A DNA stretch of 64,000 bases from positions 1-64,000 of the forward strand of contig CANCXX010000002.1 of NCBI GenBank assembly GCA_947381965.1. Direction: 5' to 3'. Made by a program: the position numbers and the translations under genes. The notes beneath the pieces are model-generated. The model was not told the DNA's origin, searched no databases, and was given only the letters and a program-made list of their open reading frames with translations. How positions within the stretch are numbered: position 1 is the first letter of the stretch; every line of letters begins with the position of its first letter. Shown piece after piece: positions 547 through 51,300 of this stretch. The DNA is from an uncultured bacterium. GTDB taxonomy: Bacteria > Bacillota > Clostridia > Lachnospirales > Lachnospiraceae.

Positions 547-2544
547 TTATATCTTATGCACCAGCCATTCCTGTCTTCCTTCTCTTAAAAACACAGGAAG
601 TGTATCAATTGGAGCTTCTATCTCATATGTATTTCCCCCCTGGTAAACTTTACCTGTACCTGCATGTGTCCAGCTAACTCCCAGCGGCAGATAAACCATA
701 CGGCTCATTGCTCCCTTATGGCAAATAGGCGCAACAAGAAGATCCGGACCAAACATGTAAGCATCCTTTACTTCCCAGCATTTTTTATCTTCCGGGAACT
801 CATAAAACATAGCGCGGATAACTGGCGTCCCCTTTTCGTGGGCTTCTCTCATAAGGCTTCTTGTATAGTCTCTCATCATTTCCCTTATCCTTATAAATTT
901 TACAAGAATAGGATAAGCCTCTGTTCCAAAGCTCCACACCTCATTATCAGCTCCTGTCCCTTCCCGCACTTCCCCTTTTTTATCCACGATCCTTTGCTTA
1001 GGCTGCCTGTCACCATGAATCCTCATTACCGGACAAAAAGTGCCAAACTGGAACCATCTGATTAAAAGCTCCCGGAACTCTTCTTTTTCCACATTTCCAC
1101 CGTGAAAGCCTCCAATGTCAGTTGTCCACCATGGTATTCCACAGATTCCCATATGAATTCCCGCACAAATCTGCTTTCTGAAATCCTCATAAGTTGACAT
1201 AATATCCCCTGACCAAACCAGTGCGCCATATCTCTGACTTCCTACCCAGGCACAGCGAATCAGATTCACAATATCCGTCTGGCCCTGCTCTCTTTGTCCT
1301 TCATAAAAAAGTCTGGCATACTCACGGGGATAAATATTCCCCACTTCCGTCACAGGACCTGCAAAATAACGGTAGCAGTCAAAATCATAGGTGGTAAATT
1401 CCGGCTCCGCCTCGTCCAGCCAAAACGTTTTTATTCCCAAATCTCCATAATTTTTCTTACACTTCTCCCATACGTATCTGCGCGTGCGGGGGTTCGTGGC
1501 GTCCATAAATACATTGTTTCCAAGATAGGTCATCTGCACATCAACGCCCCCGTTGCTTTTAACCAAAAGTCCTTTCTGTTTCATTTCTTCATAATTTTCA
1601 CTTCTCCAGTCCACCTGGGGCCATACAGATACCATGGTTTCTATGCCCATTCCATGAAGCTCCTCCACCATAGCCGCAGGATTTGGAAAATACTCTTCAT
1701 CAAAGCGCCAGTCCCCGCAGCGGGGCCAGTGATAATAATCAATCACCAAAACATCCACAGGTATCTGCCGCTTTTTGTACTCCCTGGCAATTTTAAGCAC
1801 CTGCTCCTGATTATAATAGCGCAGCTTACACTGCCAGAAACCCAGACCATATTCCGGCATCATAGGCGCCTTTCCTGTAACTGATGTAAAATTTTCTTCT
1901 ATCCGGGCAGGCGTATCTCCTGCTGTAATCCAGTAGTCAAGCTGTCTGGCAGCGCAGGCTGTCCATTCTGTGGTATTAAGTCCAAAGTGCGCTTCCCCAA
2001 TGGCTGCATTGTTCCACAAAAAACCATATCCTAAATTTGACAGATAAAAAGGAATGCTTGCCTGAGAATTCCTGTGCGCTAGTTCCAGATTACAGCCCTT
2101 TAAATTCATCCTCTCCTGCTGGTACTGCCCCATACCATAAATCTTTTCCTCCGGATCTGATACAAAGCTTGCCTTTAAACGATAACTCCCGCCTGAAAGA
2201 GGCTGAAACTGCCTTGCCCTGATCTGCAGGGCGCCGCCGTTTGGAATCTCCTGCAAAAGCAGCTGTCCCTTCTGGTTGTAAAAACTGATCTGCAGGGCCT
2301 TTCCCCAAAGATTTACAGAAAGCTTTGCACATATCTTTCCATTTGTAATAGATGCCTGGCTGCCGTCAATAGAAATCTCACTGACAGAAGCAGCCGCTGG
2401 AAGAAGCGCACTGCTTCCCTCACCAACCTCTCCCATCATTACAGCACGTACCCGGAAACTATCTTCTCCCCAGGGAGAAATCATCACCGTTTCCCCATTT
2501 TCACGAAATATAAGACTCCCATTACCTTCCTCAAAAAAATTCAT
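547..2544 (-). CDS. Glycoside hydrolase family 31 (alpha-glucosidase/alpha-xylosidase-like)
   Basis: A 665-aa GH31 enzyme, expected to release alpha-linked glucose or xylose from oligosaccharides in the cytoplasm (no signal peptide). An N-terminal beta-sandwich (about 1-225) precedes the catalytic barrel. The nucleophile region FWLDEAEPEF puts the catalytic Asp near 377, and VWSGDIMSTYEDF puts the acid/base Asp near 447. The WLDEAEPE form is typical of XylS/YicI-related members, so alpha-xylosidase activity is possible, but specificity cannot be read from sequence. The start has a strong AGGAGG site. This site is fused to the end of a tandem 104-bp repeat (2556-2727), so the mRNA leader contains that structured element. 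The gene follows the GLUG/LysM gene on the same strand. Confidence 0.9.
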   Translation of the reverse strand: MNFFEEGNGSLIFRENGETVMISPWGEDSFRVRAVMMGEVGEGSSALLPAAASVSEISIDGSQASITNGKICAKLSVNLWGKALQISFYNQKGQLLLQEIPNGGALQIRARQFQPLSGGSYRLKASFVSDPEEKIYGMGQYQQERMNLKGCNLELAHRNSQASIPFYLSNLGYGFLWNNAAIGEAHFGLNTTEWTACAARQLDYWITAGDTPARIEENFTSVTGKAPMMPEYGLGFWQCKLRYYNQEQVLKIAREYKKRQIPVDVLVIDYYHWPRCGDWRFDEEYFPNPAAMVEELHGMGIETMVSVWPQVDWRSENYEEMKQKGLLVKSNGGVDVQMTYLGNNVFMDATNPRTRRYVWEKCKKNYGDLGIKTFWLDEAEPEFTTYDFDCYRYFAGPVTEVGNIYPREYARLFYEGQREQGQTDIVNLIRCAWVGSQRYGALVWSGDIMSTYEDFRKQICAGIHMGICGIPWWTTDIGGFHGGNVEKEEFRELLIRWFQFGTFCPVMRIHGDRQPKQRIVDKKGEVREGTGADNEVWSFGTEAYPILVKFIRIREMMRDYTRSLMREAHEKGTPVIRAMFYEFPEDKKCWEVKDAYMFGPDLLVAPICHKGAMSRMVYLPLGVSWTHAGTGKVYQGGNTYEIEAPIDTLPVFLREGRQEWLVHKI

Positions 2545-2555
2545 ATTTCCTCCTA

Positions 2556-2735
2556 TTCCAGTTCCGCTTCGCCCCTACAAGGGCCTGTGCTCTTCAGAGC
2601 AAATCCTGCCTGCTCTGCATCCAGTCTTTCCTCTGGGCCCTTGAATGGCCTTCGCTGTCTTCCAGTTCCGCTTCGCCCCTACAAGGGCCTATATTCTTCA
2701 GAGCAAATCCTGCCTGCTCTGCATCCAACAATAAT
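2556..2735 (-). repeat. Tandem structured 5'-UTR repeat, locus A (two copies, about 104-bp period)
   Basis: Two copies begin 104 bases apart (2556 and 2660 on the plus strand), nearly identical except for a 5-base difference near 2587/2691. On the mRNA strand each unit reads an outer arm, an inner arm CAGAGGAAAG, a loop with GCAGGCAGGATTT, the inner return arm GCTCTG, the outer return arm and a terminal AACTGGAAT. The last copy runs straight into AGGAGG and the GH31 start codon. The same architecture recurs at 14571-14817 and 50212-50421. Confidence 0.85.
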
Positions 2736-10943: not shown

Positions 10944-13900
10944 TTAAAACTTTCCTCTCTCTTCCTTCCAGTTCCCGTTTTTTTCCTGACTGGATGCAGT
11001 GGCTTTGGTCAGCTGCCACACAATTTCACTAAAATACCGTTCCGGTACTTCCCGCAGGAAGTATGCTTTTTCCTTCCCCGCCTCATCATAAACATAGCTT
11101 CCTCTTTCAATCGTGCCTGCTTTATAGAACCGCGCGTCATACACAGTGACATCATCGTTTTCGCCTCCCACAAAGCTTCCTGAAAAATGAAGCTCCACTC
11201 CAAGGGAAAGTTCCGTATCTTCCCTGTAATAGGTGTAAAATCCTCCTCCGTCCTGTACAGAACCCCGGTACCAGCCAAGCCCTGTCAGCTTTCCGCCCAG
11301 AGACAGATCGTTAATCACGCATCCTCCAAAACGTTCCAGGCTCTGCCCGGCCGCTTCTTCCTCTGTCATTTTATAAACAGTGCGTTCCAGCTGCTCCAGA
11401 GGCTGACTGATTTCATAGTCTTCCAGCTGCTGCTTCCAGGCTTCCAAAGACTCCTCTGACAGCTCTATGGGATGCACAAGCCCAATCTGTCCTGTTTCAG
11501 GAAGCTCATACTCCTCTTCCTCCTCCGTATTAAAAGATCCATCCTCCATATAGCGGAAACTCCGGACCAGCTTCCTGTTTTCATATGTTCCCCAAATAAG
11601 GCCAATGGCAAACTGGTGCATGACCGGATTTTTTACAAAAAGCTCCTTCCATGCCGCCACGCTCCACTCCCTTTCCGTAGACAGCGCCATCTCCAGCCTC
11701 ATTTTCTGACTGCTGATAGTCATCTTCATCTGTTTTTTCATCTGCTTAAATTCTTCATAAGCCGCCGCTGCCTTTTGTTCATCATCCCGCTTGCCGGGAG
11801 CAGGCATATTTTTCAGCTTCTTTCCGTTCTCGTCATAAACCTCAATTTCAAGAGCCGGGGTAATGGTCACTTTAAAGCTTCTCTCCCCATAATCAAATTT
11901 TCTCTCCATATTTTCATCAAAGCCAAGATCCGGCACAATCCGGTCCGCTAACTCTTCCCTGCTGATACCCAGCTGGGAAGCTGCAAATTCCAGAGCCTTT
12001 CCTGCGGCCGCTTTTACCTGCTTAAATTTAAACTTTCTGGATATGCCATCTACAATAAGAAGCGCCTGGGGAAGGGGATTTAAGCTAAGCGCCTGGACAG
12101 CTTCCGAGGCAATGGCGCCTCTGGCATTCTGAGGCCATTCCTGAATCTGGTGCTGGAGTTTTTTGATAATTTCAAAACCGCCGTGAATAGACGCCGCATA
12201 AAGCACCCAGCGTTTCTTTGCCTCCGCCCCCGCTTCCATCCACTTGTCAAATAATTCGTTCACATAAACGGCCAATTCCTCCTTTGCCAGATCCTGCGCT
12301 AAAATGGCTGCATTTTTGCTTACTCCGCATCCGTCTGCATAAGAATAGCACAGCAGAATGGCCTGCAGATATTCCTCCGGCGCCTCCTCCCCATTTTTTT
12401 TATGTACAGGTGAAAAAGGCGTATCATAAGCCCATGCAAGGGTGCGCTTTTTGCCGCCCTTATGAAGCTCTTTTACCAAATCTTCGCAGGTCAGCGCTCT
12501 GGAACCGGAAGCCCCCTCTTTTTCCACCTTCATGGCATTTTCCAAAAGCCCTCTTACCTTGGCATTCTTCTCCCGTTCCAGCGCCTGCAGGAACAGTTCA
12601 TTATAATCCCGCTCTCCCTCCTGCCAGCGCAGCAATACCCTTATGGCTAATTCCCGCTCCGCCGCCTTTTTGGAATGAAGGAAATCCTTCATTTCTTCTT
12701 CCCAATCCTTTTGCCCATAAAGGATATTTAACAATTCTTCTTTTACCATCTTGGCATTGTCCTGTGAAAAACCAAGAATTTCTTTTTTATTCTCCTCTGC
12801 CGCCCTTCCCATGACCCGCAGTCCGAAGAAACGCCCCACTGCCTCGGCCCCTAAAAAGGCATTTATGGTTTCCTCTCTTTTATCAGTCATATAAACAGCA
12901 AAGCCTTCCTCCGCCCCTTTCAGGAAATCACTTTTCCAGTCCCCCAGATACAGGGCATCATAAATCATAATCACACCGGAAAGCTGAAAGGACACTGCCA
13001 GCCCTTCCACGGCAAATCCTTCAAAAAGCGCCTTCACCTTCTTTGGTTTTACTTTATTGCCTTCTTTTATATCTTCATGGAAAAAATAACTGGATCGTTT
13101 CAGCAGCATATATATCTGGCATCTGCGGAAAAATGCCTCATCATGATAGTTTTTCATATAATCTCTTAAAAGATTCCGTTCTCTCCCGCCGCCGTAATAA
13201 TACTGCTGACTAATCTGGTCAGCGATAGGGTAAAGGGTGTCTACCGGTGCCGCTCCCCTTAAGTATTCTTTGATAGTATTTGCATCCTTGTAATCTTTCC
13301 CTACAAAAACGCCAATCAGCTTTTCCATGTCCTTATTGTGTCCCTGCTGCTTTCTCTGCAGCAGAAGATTTTCATAAAGAGCCGGGTCCTGTTCCTTTAC
13401 CGCCTCAAACATTCTGTTTACAGATTCCAGTTCCGCTTTGTCCATCACCTTCAGATAAGCATCTCTGTTATTATTAAGCTGGGCTTTCAAAATTGGTTTG
13501 CATCCCCGCCCTGCTGCCCAGCTTATATACCTTTCCGCCTCTATGCCAAAAACCTTATCATAATTTCCGCCCTTTACCAGAATATTCATGGGAAGGGATT
13601 CACTCATTAAAACCATAGCATCCAGCATGGGATTTTTCCCGGAAGGCACTACCCAGTTTCCATGAGCTGACAGACATACTCTGACTATGTTTTTAAGCTT
13701 TGACGACAGCGGATAATTTAAATAAGCCGTTCCCCCGAACAAGCGCAGCAAAAATGGGGATACCCCGTTCGTTCCTGCAATCTGCAGGATTTTATCCGTC
13801 ACCTTGTCATTATAAACCGCCTCCACAATTTCCTTAACAGAAGGAGCGCTCATTTTGTTTTCAAACAAAGCCCCAAAACGGGATAAAATAATATCCTCAT

Positions 13901-14555
13901 ATTTTTTCATAAGCGGCTCGTCTTCCGGCGCTATCAGAATTTCCGGCCCATCGTCATTATTTTTAAGGCCCAGAAACTTTCCAACCCCTTCTAAAAAATT
14001 CCCCTTCTTCTTTTCTCTCTTTTCCTCCGTCCAGGGATATTGGGTCATAAAATAGGCGGTAAGCAGAACCAGACTGCCATTTTCAATTGAGTTTTTCTGA
14101 TAAGACAAGGCCCTTTTCAATACCTCCCCACTTCCCTGGGCCATATCAATCAGATTTTTTATGGTGTTTCCCCGCAGGGCATAAGCGTTTAATCCGATAA
14201 ATGTTCCGTAAATAGACGCCTTCATATCCGGCTCACAGGCAAAGGCTTCACGGTTTATATTCATCATATCCATAGGCACAAGCTGGTAACAGGTGGACTG
14301 CCCTATGGCAAACAGAATCCGGAAGAGCCTCTCCATCTCTTCCTTCCTGCCCCTTTTCATCAAATCACGGAATACTCTTACCGACTTGTCAGAAGGAACC
14401 CCGGAAAGGTCACGGAAAGTAAACTGGCCAAAGGCCTCTTCCCCCTTCTCCCCCAAAAAACAGGCTTCCGCAAGGGTAAGTTCATCCTCCGGGAGCGACA
14501 ACAGCTCCAATACCTCCATGACCTTCTGGTTTCTCAAATTCTCTGGACTCATCAT
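10944..14555 (-). CDS. DUF4132 protein (YehI/MolR-like)
   Basis: A 1203-aa protein, mostly alpha-helical repeats, with the DUF4132 region in the last 330 residues (FDYGERSFKV, VMHQFAIGLIWG, then LSLGGKLTGLGWYRG). It is the large partner in the yeh-type cluster encoded just upstream (MoxR, DUF5682, VWA, SWIM). In enterobacteria the same set surrounds yehI, whose biochemical role is unproven; an older link to molybdate (molR) is doubtful. The Lys/Glu-rich charge and lack of signal peptide suggest a cytoplasmic scaffold. Its AGGAGG site abuts two 110-bp structured repeats, so its translation may be controlled separately from the rest of the cluster. Confidence 0.8.
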   Translation of the reverse strand: MMSPENLRNQKVMEVLELLSLPEDELTLAEACFLGEKGEEAFGQFTFRDLSGVPSDKSVRVFRDLMKRGRKEEMERLFRILFAIGQSTCYQLVPMDMMNINREAFACEPDMKASIYGTFIGLNAYALRGNTIKNLIDMAQGSGEVLKRALSYQKNSIENGSLVLLTAYFMTQYPWTEEKREKKKGNFLEGVGKFLGLKNNDDGPEILIAPEDEPLMKKYEDIILSRFGALFENKMSAPSVKEIVEAVYNDKVTDKILQIAGTNGVSPFLLRLFGGTAYLNYPLSSKLKNIVRVCLSAHGNWVVPSGKNPMLDAMVLMSESLPMNILVKGGNYDKVFGIEAERYISWAAGRGCKPILKAQLNNNRDAYLKVMDKAELESVNRMFEAVKEQDPALYENLLLQRKQQGHNKDMEKLIGVFVGKDYKDANTIKEYLRGAAPVDTLYPIADQISQQYYYGGGRERNLLRDYMKNYHDEAFFRRCQIYMLLKRSSYFFHEDIKEGNKVKPKKVKALFEGFAVEGLAVSFQLSGVIMIYDALYLGDWKSDFLKGAEEGFAVYMTDKREETINAFLGAEAVGRFFGLRVMGRAAEENKKEILGFSQDNAKMVKEELLNILYGQKDWEEEMKDFLHSKKAAERELAIRVLLRWQEGERDYNELFLQALEREKNAKVRGLLENAMKVEKEGASGSRALTCEDLVKELHKGGKKRTLAWAYDTPFSPVHKKNGEEAPEEYLQAILLCYSYADGCGVSKNAAILAQDLAKEELAVYVNELFDKWMEAGAEAKKRWVLYAASIHGGFEIIKKLQHQIQEWPQNARGAIASEAVQALSLNPLPQALLIVDGISRKFKFKQVKAAAGKALEFAASQLGISREELADRIVPDLGFDENMERKFDYGERSFKVTITPALEIEVYDENGKKLKNMPAPGKRDDEQKAAAAYEEFKQMKKQMKMTISSQKMRLEMALSTEREWSVAAWKELFVKNPVMHQFAIGLIWGTYENRKLVRSFRYMEDGSFNTEEEEEYELPETGQIGLVHPIELSEESLEAWKQQLEDYEISQPLEQLERTVYKMTEEEAAGQSLERFGGCVINDLSLGGKLTGLGWYRGSVQDGGGFYTYYREDTELSLGVELHFSGSFVGGENDDVTVYDARFYKAGTIERGSYVYDEAGKEKAYFLREVPERYFSEIVWQLTKATASSQEKNGNWKEERGKF

Positions 14556-14570
14556 AATCTTTTACCTCCT

Positions 14571-14817
14571 ATTCCAGTACCGCATCCGCCCTTCCAGCAC
14601 CTTTAATCTGCAGAGGAAATCCTGTCTGCTTCACAGCCCGTCTTTCCTCTGGGCACTGGCCGGGGCGGATGCTGTTTTTTATTCCAGTACCGCATCCGCC
14701 CTTCCAGCGCCTTTAATCTGCAGAGGAAATCCTGTCTGCTTCACAGCCCGTCTTTCCTCTGGGCACTGGCCGGGGCGGATGCTGTTTTTTATTCCAGTAC
14801 CCCATCTACCCTTCCGG
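14571..14817 (-). repeat. Tandem structured 5'-UTR repeat, locus B (two full 110-bp copies plus a partial third)
   Basis: Full copies span 14571-14680 and 14681-14790 and differ at one position; a partial third starts at 14791. On the mRNA strand each copy has an outer stem (CAGCATCCGCCCC / GGGCGGATGCGG), a perfect inner stem (AGAGGAAA / TTTCCTCT) and a terminal GTACTGGAAT. The last copy joins AGGAGG of the DUF4132 gene. The partial third copy overlaps the end and stop codon of the small gene at 14806. Confidence 0.9.
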
Positions 14818-15141
14818 TGCGTAATAATTTTTTCCTCTGTCGCAGGCTGTTTTTTCTTTGCACAAATATATGTATTCGTTTAGCTTTACATAAAGTCCTG
14901 CCATTCCGTCCTCTCTTTTCTCCAGCTGATGTCTGCGCATGGCAAGGCCCTTTGTTAAGGCTCCAAGAAGCTCCGATAAATATGCCATTCCATACTGCTC
15001 TGTCAGATTCGTCATATTTTCCATTGCTTCCAGCGTACTGTCGTGGACCGTGTCAAAACCACTTTGAAACAGCTCCTCCAACAGATTTTCCACATCCGCA
15101 AGCAGCATTTCCAACTTTTCCTCCTTACTCAAATTCTCCAT
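14806..15141 (-). CDS. Small helical protein of the yeh-type cluster
   Basis: A 111-aa acidic, helix-rich protein (NLSKEEKLEMLLADVENLL and later YLSELLGALTKGLAMRRHQL). I recognise no family. The ATG at 15141 overlaps the SWIM gene by 17 bases and has GGGAGAG upstream, indicating translational coupling. Its last codons (APEG, stop) lie inside the first bases of a structured repeat. Being placed between SWIM and DUF4132 suggests it is a subunit or adaptor of this system. Confidence 0.6.
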   Translation of the reverse strand: MENLSKEEKLEMLLADVENLLEELFQSGFDTVHDSTLEAMENMTNLTEQYGMAYLSELLGALTKGLAMRRHQLEKREDGMAGLYVKLNEYIYLCKEKTACDRGKNYYAPEG

Positions 15142-16867
15142 CTTCCCACAGCTCTCCCTTTTCAAACACTGCTACCGGATACATTCGTATCCGCCCATCT
15201 TTAAAATAGATTTTACCTAAAAAACAGGGTAACTTTTTGCTAGTTATCCGTTCCAGGTACCGTATCCCCCAGGACTCCCTTTTAGAATAGGCAACCTCCA
15301 CCACAATCTCTCTGCCTGCCTTATCGAAAAGACGCATAAACAATTTCTGCTCCGTTTCCGAAAAAACTGCCTCCTCACAGGAGTCAGGGCGGATAAAAAC
15401 CAGTGATACCTCCTCCCCGTCTTCCTCCTGTTCTTTTAGCCATGGGCGCCTTTTTTTATCAATCTGTTCCTCAAAAAGCTTATCAAAATCCCGGTAATAC
15501 CAGCCTCCTAAATCCCCTCTTTGAAGCCTCCTGTCTTTTTTCCGTTCTGTCAGTTCGCCCTTCGTTTCCTGACTGGAAGAAAGCCGCCTTCGCCTGTCTG
15601 CTTTTGCATTTGTTAAATGTATCCGGGATATTGCCATATCTTCAAGGGAAAAGGGCAGTCCCCAGGGGGCTTTTGCCTTTTCCCCTCTGCCCCGCCTTCC
15701 TGATTTTTCATAAAAAACAGGCTTTGCCCATGTGAAGGTGTACCACTGCCTGGTATTTTCCTCCAAAAAGTAGATCGTTTCTCCCTCATATCCCGCCTGA
15801 CTTTCAAAATGCTCCATGGCTATTCCTGTCAAATCCAAATCCCCTGCCGGAAGATACTCCGCCTTAAACTCTCCGGCAAGCTCATAAATCTGGCTGTCAT
15901 TTTCCGCCCTTTGCAAAAGAACCGTCCTCTGGTAAAGTCTTGCAAGCTGCACCATCAAGGTCTGCACCCGGAAAGATGCTTTTCTTTTAAAATAGCTTTC
16001 ATAGGAATCGCGCAAAGCCCGCCAGTATCCTTCAAAGCGGACAAGCCGGGCATTGTGGCTGATAATGGCAAGCCGTTCCATATAATCCAGACCGTCAGGA
16101 GAAGTCCTTGCCAGCCCCGTATTTAAAAGTTCATCCAGATACAGCTGCATCTGCATGGCCGTCTCCCTTACCTGCTGCCCGTCGTAAGATGGCTTTGTAA
16201 GAACCTCCTCTTCCAGTTCCCCGGCGGATAAAAGGCCCGCTTCCAGTTTACACCACACCAGCGCTGCCGCCTTATGGACGCAAAGCTCTTTTTTATGGCA
16301 GGTACAGGTGGAATATTCCAGAGGGAAGAGCAGTTTAACCTTCTGCCCCATCTCCTGCAGTTCCACAGTGATAATACTTGCATACTCAATTTTAGGTTTA
16401 TATCCGGCCCTCATTTGTCCGGCAATTGCCAATAGCTGCTTTCCTCCCAATATTTTTTTTAAAGTACCAAAGGAACAGGCTGCAATTTCTTCCATAAGCT
16501 TTTCCTTTAAATCACTTTTTTCCACTTCCGCCTGTTCTGTTTCTTGCGGCTTTTCAGTATATGCCGCCGCTTCCTTTAAAGGCTGCTGCCGCCCCTCCTT
16601 TGCCGTCTGTTCCTTCAGAGCCATAATTCCAAGTATCACATGACGGCAAATACTTCTTGAGGGACAAGAGCACTTGCTCTCCCCCAAAGGAACACAGACT
16701 GTAACCGTCTCACTGCCCACACAAACCTTTGCTTCCTCCTCCATAGAAAGCACCTGATAGTTTCCTTCTTCCTTGTCCTTATACGCCCGTTTTACAATTC
16801 CTTTATTGGACATACCGATTAAATAATCGTCATCCACATTTTCCAGCAATGTCTTCCAATTATTCAC
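15125..16867 (-). CDS. SWIM zinc-finger protein (YehQ-like)
   Basis: A 580-aa protein with two SWIM-type CxC...CxH motifs: Cys66, Cys68, Cys74, His76 (CSCPSRSICRH) and Cys189, Cys191, Cys197, His199 (CTCHKKELCVH). These bind zinc and usually mediate DNA or protein contacts. The remainder is helical and charged. A GTG start at 16867 is used, since GGGGGAT lies just upstream and no ATG is available. It follows the VWA gene by about 105 bases. It equals yehQ in the enterobacterial cluster; the molecular role is not established. Confidence 0.8.
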   Translation of the reverse strand: MNNWKTLLENVDDDYLIGMSNKGIVKRAYKDKEEGNYQVLSMEEEAKVCVGSETVTVCVPLGESKCSCPSRSICRHVILGIMALKEQTAKEGRQQPLKEAAAYTEKPQETEQAEVEKSDLKEKLMEEIAACSFGTLKKILGGKQLLAIAGQMRAGYKPKIEYASIITVELQEMGQKVKLLFPLEYSTCTCHKKELCVHKAAALVWCKLEAGLLSAGELEEEVLTKPSYDGQQVRETAMQMQLYLDELLNTGLARTSPDGLDYMERLAIISHNARLVRFEGYWRALRDSYESYFKRKASFRVQTLMVQLARLYQRTVLLQRAENDSQIYELAGEFKAEYLPAGDLDLTGIAMEHFESQAGYEGETIYFLEENTRQWYTFTWAKPVFYEKSGRRGRGEKAKAPWGLPFSLEDMAISRIHLTNAKADRRRRLSSSQETKGELTERKKDRRLQRGDLGGWYYRDFDKLFEEQIDKKRRPWLKEQEEDGEEVSLVFIRPDSCEEAVFSETEQKLFMRLFDKAGREIVVEVAYSKRESWGIRYLERITSKKLPCFLGKIYFKDGRIRMYPVAVFEKGELWEDGEFE

Positions 16868-50112: not shown

Positions 50113-50211
50113 GAGCAGGACAAAAGAAATCTTTTTTTTATTTCAATTTTTCTGCCAAAAGTATTGACCTTCCCCTTAGGGACTGCCTTACAATAAATAA
50201 AAGCATGAGAA

Positions 50212-50421
50212 CAGTAAGCGCCCTCTCAAGTGCCCAAAGCAAATTCAGGCTGCACCGCAGACAGAATTGGCTTTGACTGTCACTGGTACTTGCGAGGAGG
50301 CTTACGGTACTGGAATCAGTAAGCATCCTCTCAAGTGCCCAAAGCAAATTCAGGCTGCACCGCAGACAGAATTGGCTTTGACTGTCACTGGTACTTGCGA
50401 GGAGGCTTACGGTACTGGAAT
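50212..50421 (+). repeat. Tandem structured 5'-UTR repeat, locus C (two 106-bp copies)
   Basis: Copies at 50212-50317 and 50318-50421 are almost identical. The outer arms (GTAAGCATCCTCTCAAG and the return arm GTACTTGCGAGGAGGCTTAC) and inner arms AAAGCAAA / TTGGCTTT pair, although the sequences differ from loci A and B. Each copy ends GGTACTGGAAT, and the second joins AGGAG upstream of the MerR-type gene. Confidence 0.9.
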
Positions 50422-50436
50422 AGGAGAACAAATAAT

Positions 50437-51300
50437 ATGATGATAACAGAAGCAGGCAAACAAACCGGCCTGACCAGAAAGGCAATTGAATATTATATTG
50501 AACAGAATCTAATCTCCCCCCATATTCTTGAAAATGGATATCGGGATTTTGACAGCAGCGACCTTGCCCGTTTGAAAAAAATTTCCGTGCTGCGCAGGCT
50601 TGGTCTAAATGTGGAAAGCATCCGGCTTACGCTTGCAGATGAATCCGGCGCTTTCCTTCAAAAGCTGTCTGCACAAAAACAGCTGCAGGCACAGACAGCC
50701 TCAAAAAAACTTCTTCTTCTTGAAAAGCTGGGCGCAGGCGCAGATTATGCAGATATTGGAAGAGCTCTGGAATCTCTGGATCAAAATTCCACTATTGGGG
50801 AAAAGCTGCTGGACGCTTTTCCCGGATATTTTGGGAAATATATCTGTCTGCATTTTTCCAGTTTTCTTAATGAGCCTGCCGCCACCTCTAAGCAGAAGGA
50901 TGCTTACCTGAGAGTCCTGTCCTTTCTTGACAGCCTTCCTCCACTCTCCTTTCCGGCCGATGTGCAGAAATTTCTGGACGAATATACCAGTCAGATAACT
51001 ATAACACAAATTAACACCCTAATAAAAAATTACCATTCTTCAATTGAAAACCCGGAAAAGTTTTTATCTGAACATAAAGAAACATTAGATTATTATTATC
51101 AGTTTAAGCATTCAGACGAATATAAGAATACCGTAGCATACAAGCTGGGCGTTTGCTTAAATGAATTTAACAGTTCCACCGGGTATTATGATATATTTAT
51201 TCCCGCCATGAAAGAGCTTAGCCCTTCTTATGCTGAATTTTGCCAAAAAATAGACCTTGCAAACCAGAAATTTTTAAAGGAGTACCCGGAATCCTTGTGA
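50437..51300 (+). CDS. MerR-family transcriptional regulator
   Basis: About 287 aa. The start at 50437 (MMITEAGKQTGLTRKAIEYY) gives a MerR winged-helix domain (EQNLISPHILENGYRDFDSS, LRRLGLNVESIRLTL). A long helical and poorly characterised C-terminal region follows (ESLDQNSTIGEKLLDAFPGY) and may bind an effector. A longer frame reads back through the repeat and is not used. AGGAG lies 10 bases upstream. It is a lone plus-strand gene whose mRNA leader contains two structured repeats. Confidence 0.8.
   Translation: MMITEAGKQTGLTRKAIEYYIEQNLISPHILENGYRDFDSSDLARLKKISVLRRLGLNVESIRLTLADESGAFLQKLSAQKQLQAQTASKKLLLLEKLGAGADYADIGRALESLDQNSTIGEKLLDAFPGYFGKYICLHFSSFLNEPAATSKQKDAYLRVLSFLDSLPPLSFPADVQKFLDEYTSQITITQINTLIKNYHSSIENPEKFLSEHKETLDYYYQFKHSDEYKNTVAYKLGVCLNEFNSSTGYYDIFIPAMKELSPSYAEFCQKIDLANQKFLKEYPESL

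Follow-up and report, generated by a model that had tools for sequence, protein, structure and literature searches.

The window, a stretch of 64,000 nucleotides from a Lachnospiraceae genome of 4.3 Mb, contains three loci, here called A, B and C, at which units of about 105 nt stand in tandem directly 5' to the ribosome-binding site of a gene. A sequence-only reading of the window had placed tandem units at 2556-2735, 14571-14817 and 50212-50421, and both the sequence and matches to a covariance model (R1, described below) bear out these positions. The features at the three loci are as follows.

547..2544, minus strand: gene 3' of locus A, glycosyl hydrolase family 31 (open reading frame; PF01055)
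2549..2554, minus strand: ribosome-binding site AGGAGG of locus A, with one T between unit and site (sequence)
2556..2659, minus strand: full hairpin unit of locus A proximal to the Shine-Dalgarno (SD) sequence (R1 match of 91.4 bits, model positions 1-106 of 106)
2660..2730, minus strand: second unit of locus A, truncated at its 5' end (nhmmer, model positions 35-105)
10944..14555, minus strand: gene 3' of locus B, 1203 aa (open reading frame list)
14565..14570, minus strand: ribosome-binding site AGGAGG of locus B (sequence)
14572..14676, minus strand: SD-proximal unit of locus B (R1 match of 105.7 bits; fold z -6.07)
14677-14681: linker TAAAA between the units of locus B
14682..14786, minus strand: distal unit of locus B (R1 match of 108.3 bits)
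14787..14820, minus strand: partial unit of locus B, 34 nt of a 3' end (comparison with genome G032; open reading frame list)
14806-15165: reading frame upstream of locus B, ended by the TAG of the partial unit (open reading frame list)
50210..50314, plus strand: distal unit of locus C (R1 match of 71.2 bits, listed as 50210-50315)
50315..50420, plus strand: SD-proximal unit of locus C (R1 match of 72.0 bits; fold z -4.79)
50422..50426, plus strand: ribosome-binding site AGGAG of locus C (sequence)
50437..51300, plus strand: gene 3' of locus C, MerR-family regulator (PF13411; end as in the open reading frame list, start chosen from the SD)

Read in the window sequence, all three arrays end in (T/A)ACTGGAA-T-AGGAG(G), after which the start codon comes, so that the earlier description of a unit end joined on the mRNA strand to AGGAG and a start codon is true of A, B and C alike. 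The same reading had described stems that differ in sequence among the loci and remain complementary, and this is also seen in the sequence. The product of the gene 3' of locus B gave no NCBIfam or Pfam match when its first 400 aa were scanned.

Size of the family and structure of the unit

When locus B was compared by blastn with the window's own genome, matches turned up at 44 places, and an iterative profile search over 34 stretches around these places gave 43 arrays. The covariance model R1 was then used, which rests on 14 clean units and a structure written by hand. It gave 112 matches at E values up to 0.01; since 150 of 2676 candidates were scored, some copies may be missed, and conversely the count takes in partial copies. 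The repeat family proposed from the window is thus real, but it is not restricted to three loci, with about 100 copies present in the genome. Sorted by their number of full units, 45 arrays have one, 16 have two, 5 have three and 3 have none. Some matches are shortened to 38-68 nt and apparently lack the apex (L050:1918-1984, L068:2136-2173, L069:2278-2345, L260:1494-1531 and L248:1228-1291), and such units likely mark a path of decay. It should be noted that the assembly is listed with 7.31% contamination. The host is assigned to Lachnospiraceae on the family of the closest named relatives of its guaB. Contigs C14 and C44 (L001 and L002; G000) have three unit matches in common at a constant offset of 67 bases, which seems to be a stretch duplicated in the assembly. 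Neither the 64-kb window nor, at E 0.1, any of three loci that hold units matched an Rfam family. One unit was searched for carriage on phages and plasmids and found no match there; a single match of an 18-base end pattern in a viral contig lay antisense inside a long phage reading frame and was taken as chance.

The unit is a single long, imperfect hairpin (about 105 nt) whose foot is conserved, with CAG at the 5' end and CGG(A/T)ACT at the 3' end. The outer stem is Watson-Crick paired in some units and has mismatches of the G-A type in others. Two more stems lie above it, the second and the third, with a bulge of 8-9 nt on one side only between them, and the hairpin closes in a small apical stem-loop. 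The third stem is CAGAG/CTCTG in most units of the own genome and has other sequences in other genomes. In five units tested, the fold energies had z values of -3.0 to -6.5 relative to dinucleotide shuffles.

Changes on both sides of a pair were found at 28 of 35 pairs among 53 distinct units of the own genome in a model-fitted alignment, at 33 of 35 among 49 units from Acetatifactor muris and seven genomes of other genera, and again at 33 of 35 in 112 distinct units from 12 genomes. In each of these three sets the covariation score was reached by none of 500 shuffles. Since the hand-written structure and the model-fitted alignments are biased towards structure, an alignment-free test of the arms was added, in which the arms of the outer stem were paired at a fixed distance from the conserved ends in the 50 of 69 arrays that had both anchors. 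When arms were exchanged between loci 5000 times, the mean number of Watson-Crick pairs was 171 (sd 7) and the maximum 201, whereas the real outer arms had them at 257 of 400 positions. RNAalifold returned no pairs on the first MAFFT alignment, we think because the arms were misaligned. Structure and covariation are direct observations, and the pairing, which may matter as RNA or as single-stranded DNA, is well supported. Covariation at chance level and placement random with respect to start codons had been named in advance as outcomes that would count against the sequence-only reading; both were tested and neither occurred. The covariance-model, Rfam and covariation checks that it proposed thus gave a large family, no Rfam match and significant covariation.

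Placement at the Shine-Dalgarno sequence

The location of the arrays was examined in a non-redundant set of 69, each with at least 40 nt of downstream sequence. AGGAG or GGAGG lay within 12 nt of the 3' end of the array in 51 of these, as against 44 of 2000 random positions, and no array had an SD on the opposite (5') side when that side was read antisense. Position and strand are in this way observed directly, and the fixed orientation and location directly 5' of a ribosome-binding site, first suggested by three loci, hold for the family. A start codon opening a frame of at least 30 codons followed 64 of the 69 arrays. In the remaining five, two arrays ran into IS110 at contig ends, two contigs ended within a further unit and one array was cut by the end of the stretch examined. 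That a start codon lies within 60 nt says little, since 1203 of 2000 random positions also pass, and the placement argument therefore rests on the SD test. Where AGGAG or GGAGG was found within 14 nt (53 arrays), a start codon followed 5-9 nt on with a frame of at least 100 codons in 45 cases. In 46 of 49 arrays AGGAG was preceded by a T, as it was at only 5 of 44 ribosome-binding sites of the window, three of which are those of loci A, B and C. This T is therefore part of the unit or of its target.

Similar placement was seen in other genomes. Among 79 aligned units, 19 were followed by another unit, leaving 60 at array ends. A strong SD lay within 14 nt in 41 of these 60, and a start codon with a frame of at least 60 codons lay within 30 nt in 50. 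The 19 array-end units that had no strong SD were followed by weak SDs, by spacers before another unit, or by no SD. A unit of Acetatifactor muris outside the 79 (L187) has a start codon and no SD.

The genes that follow the arrays show no common function or pathway. All 64 listed downstream frames were scanned over at most their first 400 codons, and 52 matched an NCBIfam or Pfam family while 12 did not. Represented are fabZ, glutamate synthase small subunit, ABC transporters, aldolases, tyrS, pheS, argJ, glyA, homoserine dehydrogenase, IMP dehydrogenase (guaB), dapB, thymidylate synthase, ispD, scpB and D-Ala ligase, together with a MerR regulator and a glycosyl hydrolase; many of the 64 are housekeeping or metabolic genes. 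Predicted accessibility of the SD, in 55 arrays, was 0.630 with the real unit, 0.657 with a shuffled unit and 0.759 with none; the real unit gave the higher value of real and shuffled in 21 of 55. A unit-specific effect on accessibility was set aside on these values, as the real unit behaves like a shuffled one and both lie below the value with no unit.

The family is patchily distributed. Within the genus, matches were found in 9 of 37 genomes, own genome included, and 28 had none. In wider samples, in which the best 9-10 candidates per genome were scored (a depth at which only 9-10 of the 112 matches are found in the own genome), 8 of 397 genomes of the family had matches, own included, and 1 of 392 across the order, the own genome itself. 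Acetatifactor muris carries the family; in the set of four genomes to which it belongs, the other three had no matches. Among 110 guaB leaders, of which 108 have 120 nt or more and 101 of the 108 are distinct, a profile scan detected full units only in those of the own genome and A. muris; the guaB leaders of genomes G028 and G006 have short end scars that are weak in the scan and visible by eye. A. muris (L186, L187, L197) has another repeat, TTTAGAGCCGTCGC(A/G)CAGCGACT, a short distance 5' of several units.

Variation between arrays and genomes

Units within one array have a median identity of 98%, and units of different arrays are 65% identical. The near-identity of copies within a locus, as described from the window, is thus usual, but two mosaic arrays depart from it, with identities of 62% and 63%. 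In the array before tyrS (L010), unit 1 is 96% identical to unit 2 of the array before an acetyltransferase gene (L035), and unit 2 is 94% identical to the unit before an aldolase gene (L004). The downstream flanks of L010 match those of L035 and L004 at 51% and 56%, which is the level of random comparisons (mean 50%, maximum 58%). Single units are thus seen to be shared between loci, and since the units are alike and the flanks are not, they travel without their flanks. The top pair in the comparison, L056 and L057 at 100% identity, is probably one array split across two contig ends and was left out of this argument. When the nearest neighbour of each copy was sought, it lay in the same genome for 71 of 117 copies, where 19 were expected; this speaks for amplification within genomes.

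Empty sites were observed in relatives. In genome G032 the orthologue of locus B has no units, and the upstream frame extends beyond the start codon of the downstream gene, so that the two genes overlap. The window's locus B has in comparison a 34-nt partial and two full units directly before the SD, the empty site joins at the partial, and a TAG inside the partial terminates the upstream frame. The G032 protein is 43% identical to the locus B protein over the part compared, and the empty site is therefore a distant one. Closer genomes also differ. Along some 17 kb with a glycyl-radical-enzyme microcompartment operon (assigned by Pfam; L254 5543-12592 compared with L255), G028 and G006 have 96-99% of their sequence in common, and in this operon their unit content differs at all four arrays: two units as against one, one as against a 10-nt end, one as against a short scar, and two as against one with its apex deleted. 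These differences fit gain in G028 as well as loss in G006. No unit trace was found in a third genome, G030, at the three of the four operon sites that could be located, which favours gain in the common line of G028 and G006; because the G006 sites retain short scars of a 3' end, loss in G006 is possible there.

A partial 3' end of 12-68 nt lies upstream of 35 of 56 arrays, and in 26 of these 35 it is closest to the array's own unit and in that sense locus-specific. Such partials may be scars of insertion, remains of older units since truncated, or the result of local duplication, and for the locus-specific ones local duplication is the better explanation than insertion. At the empty sites of relatives no target duplication was seen, the 5' boundaries being blurred and the unit one long inverted repeat. 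Like a MITE, the unit is short, present in many copies, and present or absent among relatives.

Two unit arrays continue into an element of the IS110 family (PF01548 and PF02371), copies of which were found in G032 (L259, L267, L290) and in the own genome (L260, L262-L266, L291-L293). All 6 own-genome copies have TAG or AAG at the end of the left flank, and in 3 of the 6 this flank consists of a unit end, or a scar of one, plus TAG. The right end adjoins AGGAGG and a start codon in 2 of 3 exact own copies and in G032; the third has AGGAAG. A fourth own-genome match to the right end, with three mismatches, has no SD next to it, and the count leaves out three mismatched matches in G006, G028 and G030. 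As the contigs stop at IS110, each own-genome copy shows one end only. So IS110 inserts inside Shine-Dalgarno sequences, at TA(A)G/GAGG, where the slash marks the boundary. In G028 and A. muris the unit junctions can be read with an AG boundary like that of IS110. The unit model found no match in the IS110 stretches (L259, L267, L290-L293), including the 5' non-coding region in L267 and L290-L293, and we regard the connection between IS110 and the units as a lead only.

A Y1 transposase was considered as the mobiliser and rejected for the own genome: four Y1_Tnp matches at three places exist there, yet their fetched surroundings (L070-L073) contain no units. Neither around the Y1 matches nor in the comparison of IS110 with the model was a transposase tied to the hairpin family.

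Origin of the arrays and comparison with known systems

We favour, with a probability of roughly 0.6, the reading that the family consists of non-autonomous structured mobile repeats inserted site- and strand-specifically at Shine-Dalgarno sequences. A unit would insert with its 3' end directly against the AGGAG(G) that serves a gene as ribosome-binding site. Tandem arrays would form as later units enter this junction too or are copied by local duplication. Recombination or deletion of the hairpin would remove units and leave short 3'-end scars, and the 5' UTR would from then on end in the array. The hairpin and an AG/GAGG target would be recognised by a trans-acting enzyme. Gain rather than loss presumably lies behind most of the differences, and selection on structure would come mainly from mobility. 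In a more specific and quite tentative form of this reading, the units would make up a class of SD-targeting mobile elements, mobilised in trans by an enzyme that seeks out the SD, perhaps an IS110-type recombinase that cuts at AG/GAGG, and would sit as tunable hairpins at the start of translation.

The sequence-only reading, which had offered a structured regulatory RNA or a self-amplifying 5'-UTR element, is partly supported. Proliferation as a 5'-UTR element agrees with what was found. A regulatory RNA domain acting before the ribosome-binding site, for instance by binding a global RNA-binding protein or by stabilising the 5' end, with copy number tuning expression, we consider a doubtful account of the family. 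Sense orientation and place are fixed, the structure covaries, the CGG(A/T)ACT end is conserved beside the SD and many of the genes downstream are housekeeping or metabolic; a strand-fixed position adjoining the SD is expected of a regulator too, and on sequence the units could class as leaders, with a conserved, covarying structure just 5' of the coding region. The predicted accessibility of the SD with a unit is also below that with none (0.630 and 0.759), but over the same 55 arrays the real unit is close to a shuffled one (0.630 and 0.657). Further evidence against a regulatory domain comes from the 64 downstream genes without a common function, from the patchy presence of units (absent from 108 of 110 guaB leaders and 28 of 37 genus genomes) and from empty sites in relatives, at one of which, locus B of G032, two genes overlap. 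Selfish mobility and regulation are not exclusive, and a regulatory role is possible.

Two further explanations concern how the units spread. That they are moved by a bridge-RNA-guided recombinase of the IS110 type, or are remnants of such a system, appears improbable. The TAG or AAG left flanks, the AGGAGG at the right end in two of three exact copies and in G032, the three own copies that start after a unit end or scar plus TAG, and the AG boundary readable at unit junctions in G028 and A. muris all fit it; nevertheless, the unit model has no match inside IS110, 5' non-coding region included, the units are unlike the IS110 ends by eye, and the likeness of targets may be coincidence or reflect units that are merely IS110 targets. 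Spread without transposition seems very improbable. Here leaders would spread by recombination or slippage at short SD homology, arrays would vary as tandem repeats do, and palindrome correction would keep the arms alike. Locus-specific partial copies, near-identical units within arrays and deletions at the hairpin apex are in keeping with such a process, whereas single units are common to loci that do not share their flanks, and full palindrome correction would erase the internal loops and one-sided bulge that persist.

If insertion of mobile repeats at SD sequences is the correct reading, about 64 genes of one bacterium, tyrS, pheS, guaB, argJ, dapB and thymidylate synthase among them, would carry a mobile hairpin array at the edge of the ribosome-binding site, and the family would be a mobile element of an uncommon kind, directed at the site of translation start. 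Arrays that differ in near-identical genomes would then offer a natural test of how structure next to the SD affects translation. The family would also be a covariance family new to Rfam and a route to an enzyme for which ribosome-binding sites are the insertion target.

In integrons, a cassette carries a gene between hairpin sites (attC). The present units, about 105 nt long, stand only a few nt apart and are gene-free, unlike such cassettes. No description of the hairpin family was found among the open-access papers listed from PubMed Central. The REP and BIME sequences associated with RAYT, an IS200/IS605-like transposase, resemble it as many short palindromic repeats that lie outside genes and vary by genome (PMC2817692), but REP units are 20-40 nt long (PMC3733652) where the hairpin units have about 105 nt. 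In contrast to REPs, the hairpin units lie on the sense strand, adjoin the SD, and are arranged head to tail, and no Y1 transposase was found beside a unit. The GTAG or CGTC end tag described for REP/RAYT (PMC3733652) was not found, the unit ends being conserved as CAG and CGG(A/T)ACT, and in the own genome no unit was found around the Y1 matches. The pneumococcal BOX, RUP and SPRITE elements, which are MITEs, resemble it in other ways: RUP has about 107 bp, BOX and RUP exceed 100 copies each, and BOX is built of tandem modules (PMC3049150). BOX and RUP differ in having terminal inverted repeats and target duplications, and the portion of that account used here gives no rule of abutting an SD (PMC3049150).

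The MRSC-65-2 motif, as described in the part of its report consulted here, is likewise a single long covarying stem with dozens of copies per genome and was judged selfish (PMC11109978). It has a conserved UYCCGG repeat and occurs in diverse phyla, and is set apart by this description from the present family, which has CGG(A/T)ACT and was found here in Lachnospiraceae only. The TAACTGA direct repeats of Beggiatoaceae are heptamers rather than 105-nt hairpins, and, by the portion of the account drawn on, occur where canonical ribosome-binding sites are rare. Among the systems compared, and as far as the cited passages describe them, none unites a covarying 105-nt hairpin, head-to-tail arrays and adjacency to the SD. 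With IS110 and its bridge RNA the family has target-specific insertion in common, and IS110 here likewise lies at AG/GAGG; it differs in that the hairpin unit encodes no recombinase and IS110 has no match to the unit model. The bridge RNA is encoded in the non-coding end of IS110, and no unit was found there in L267 or L290-L293. REPs are described as serving as targets for some IS110 elements (PMC11208160).
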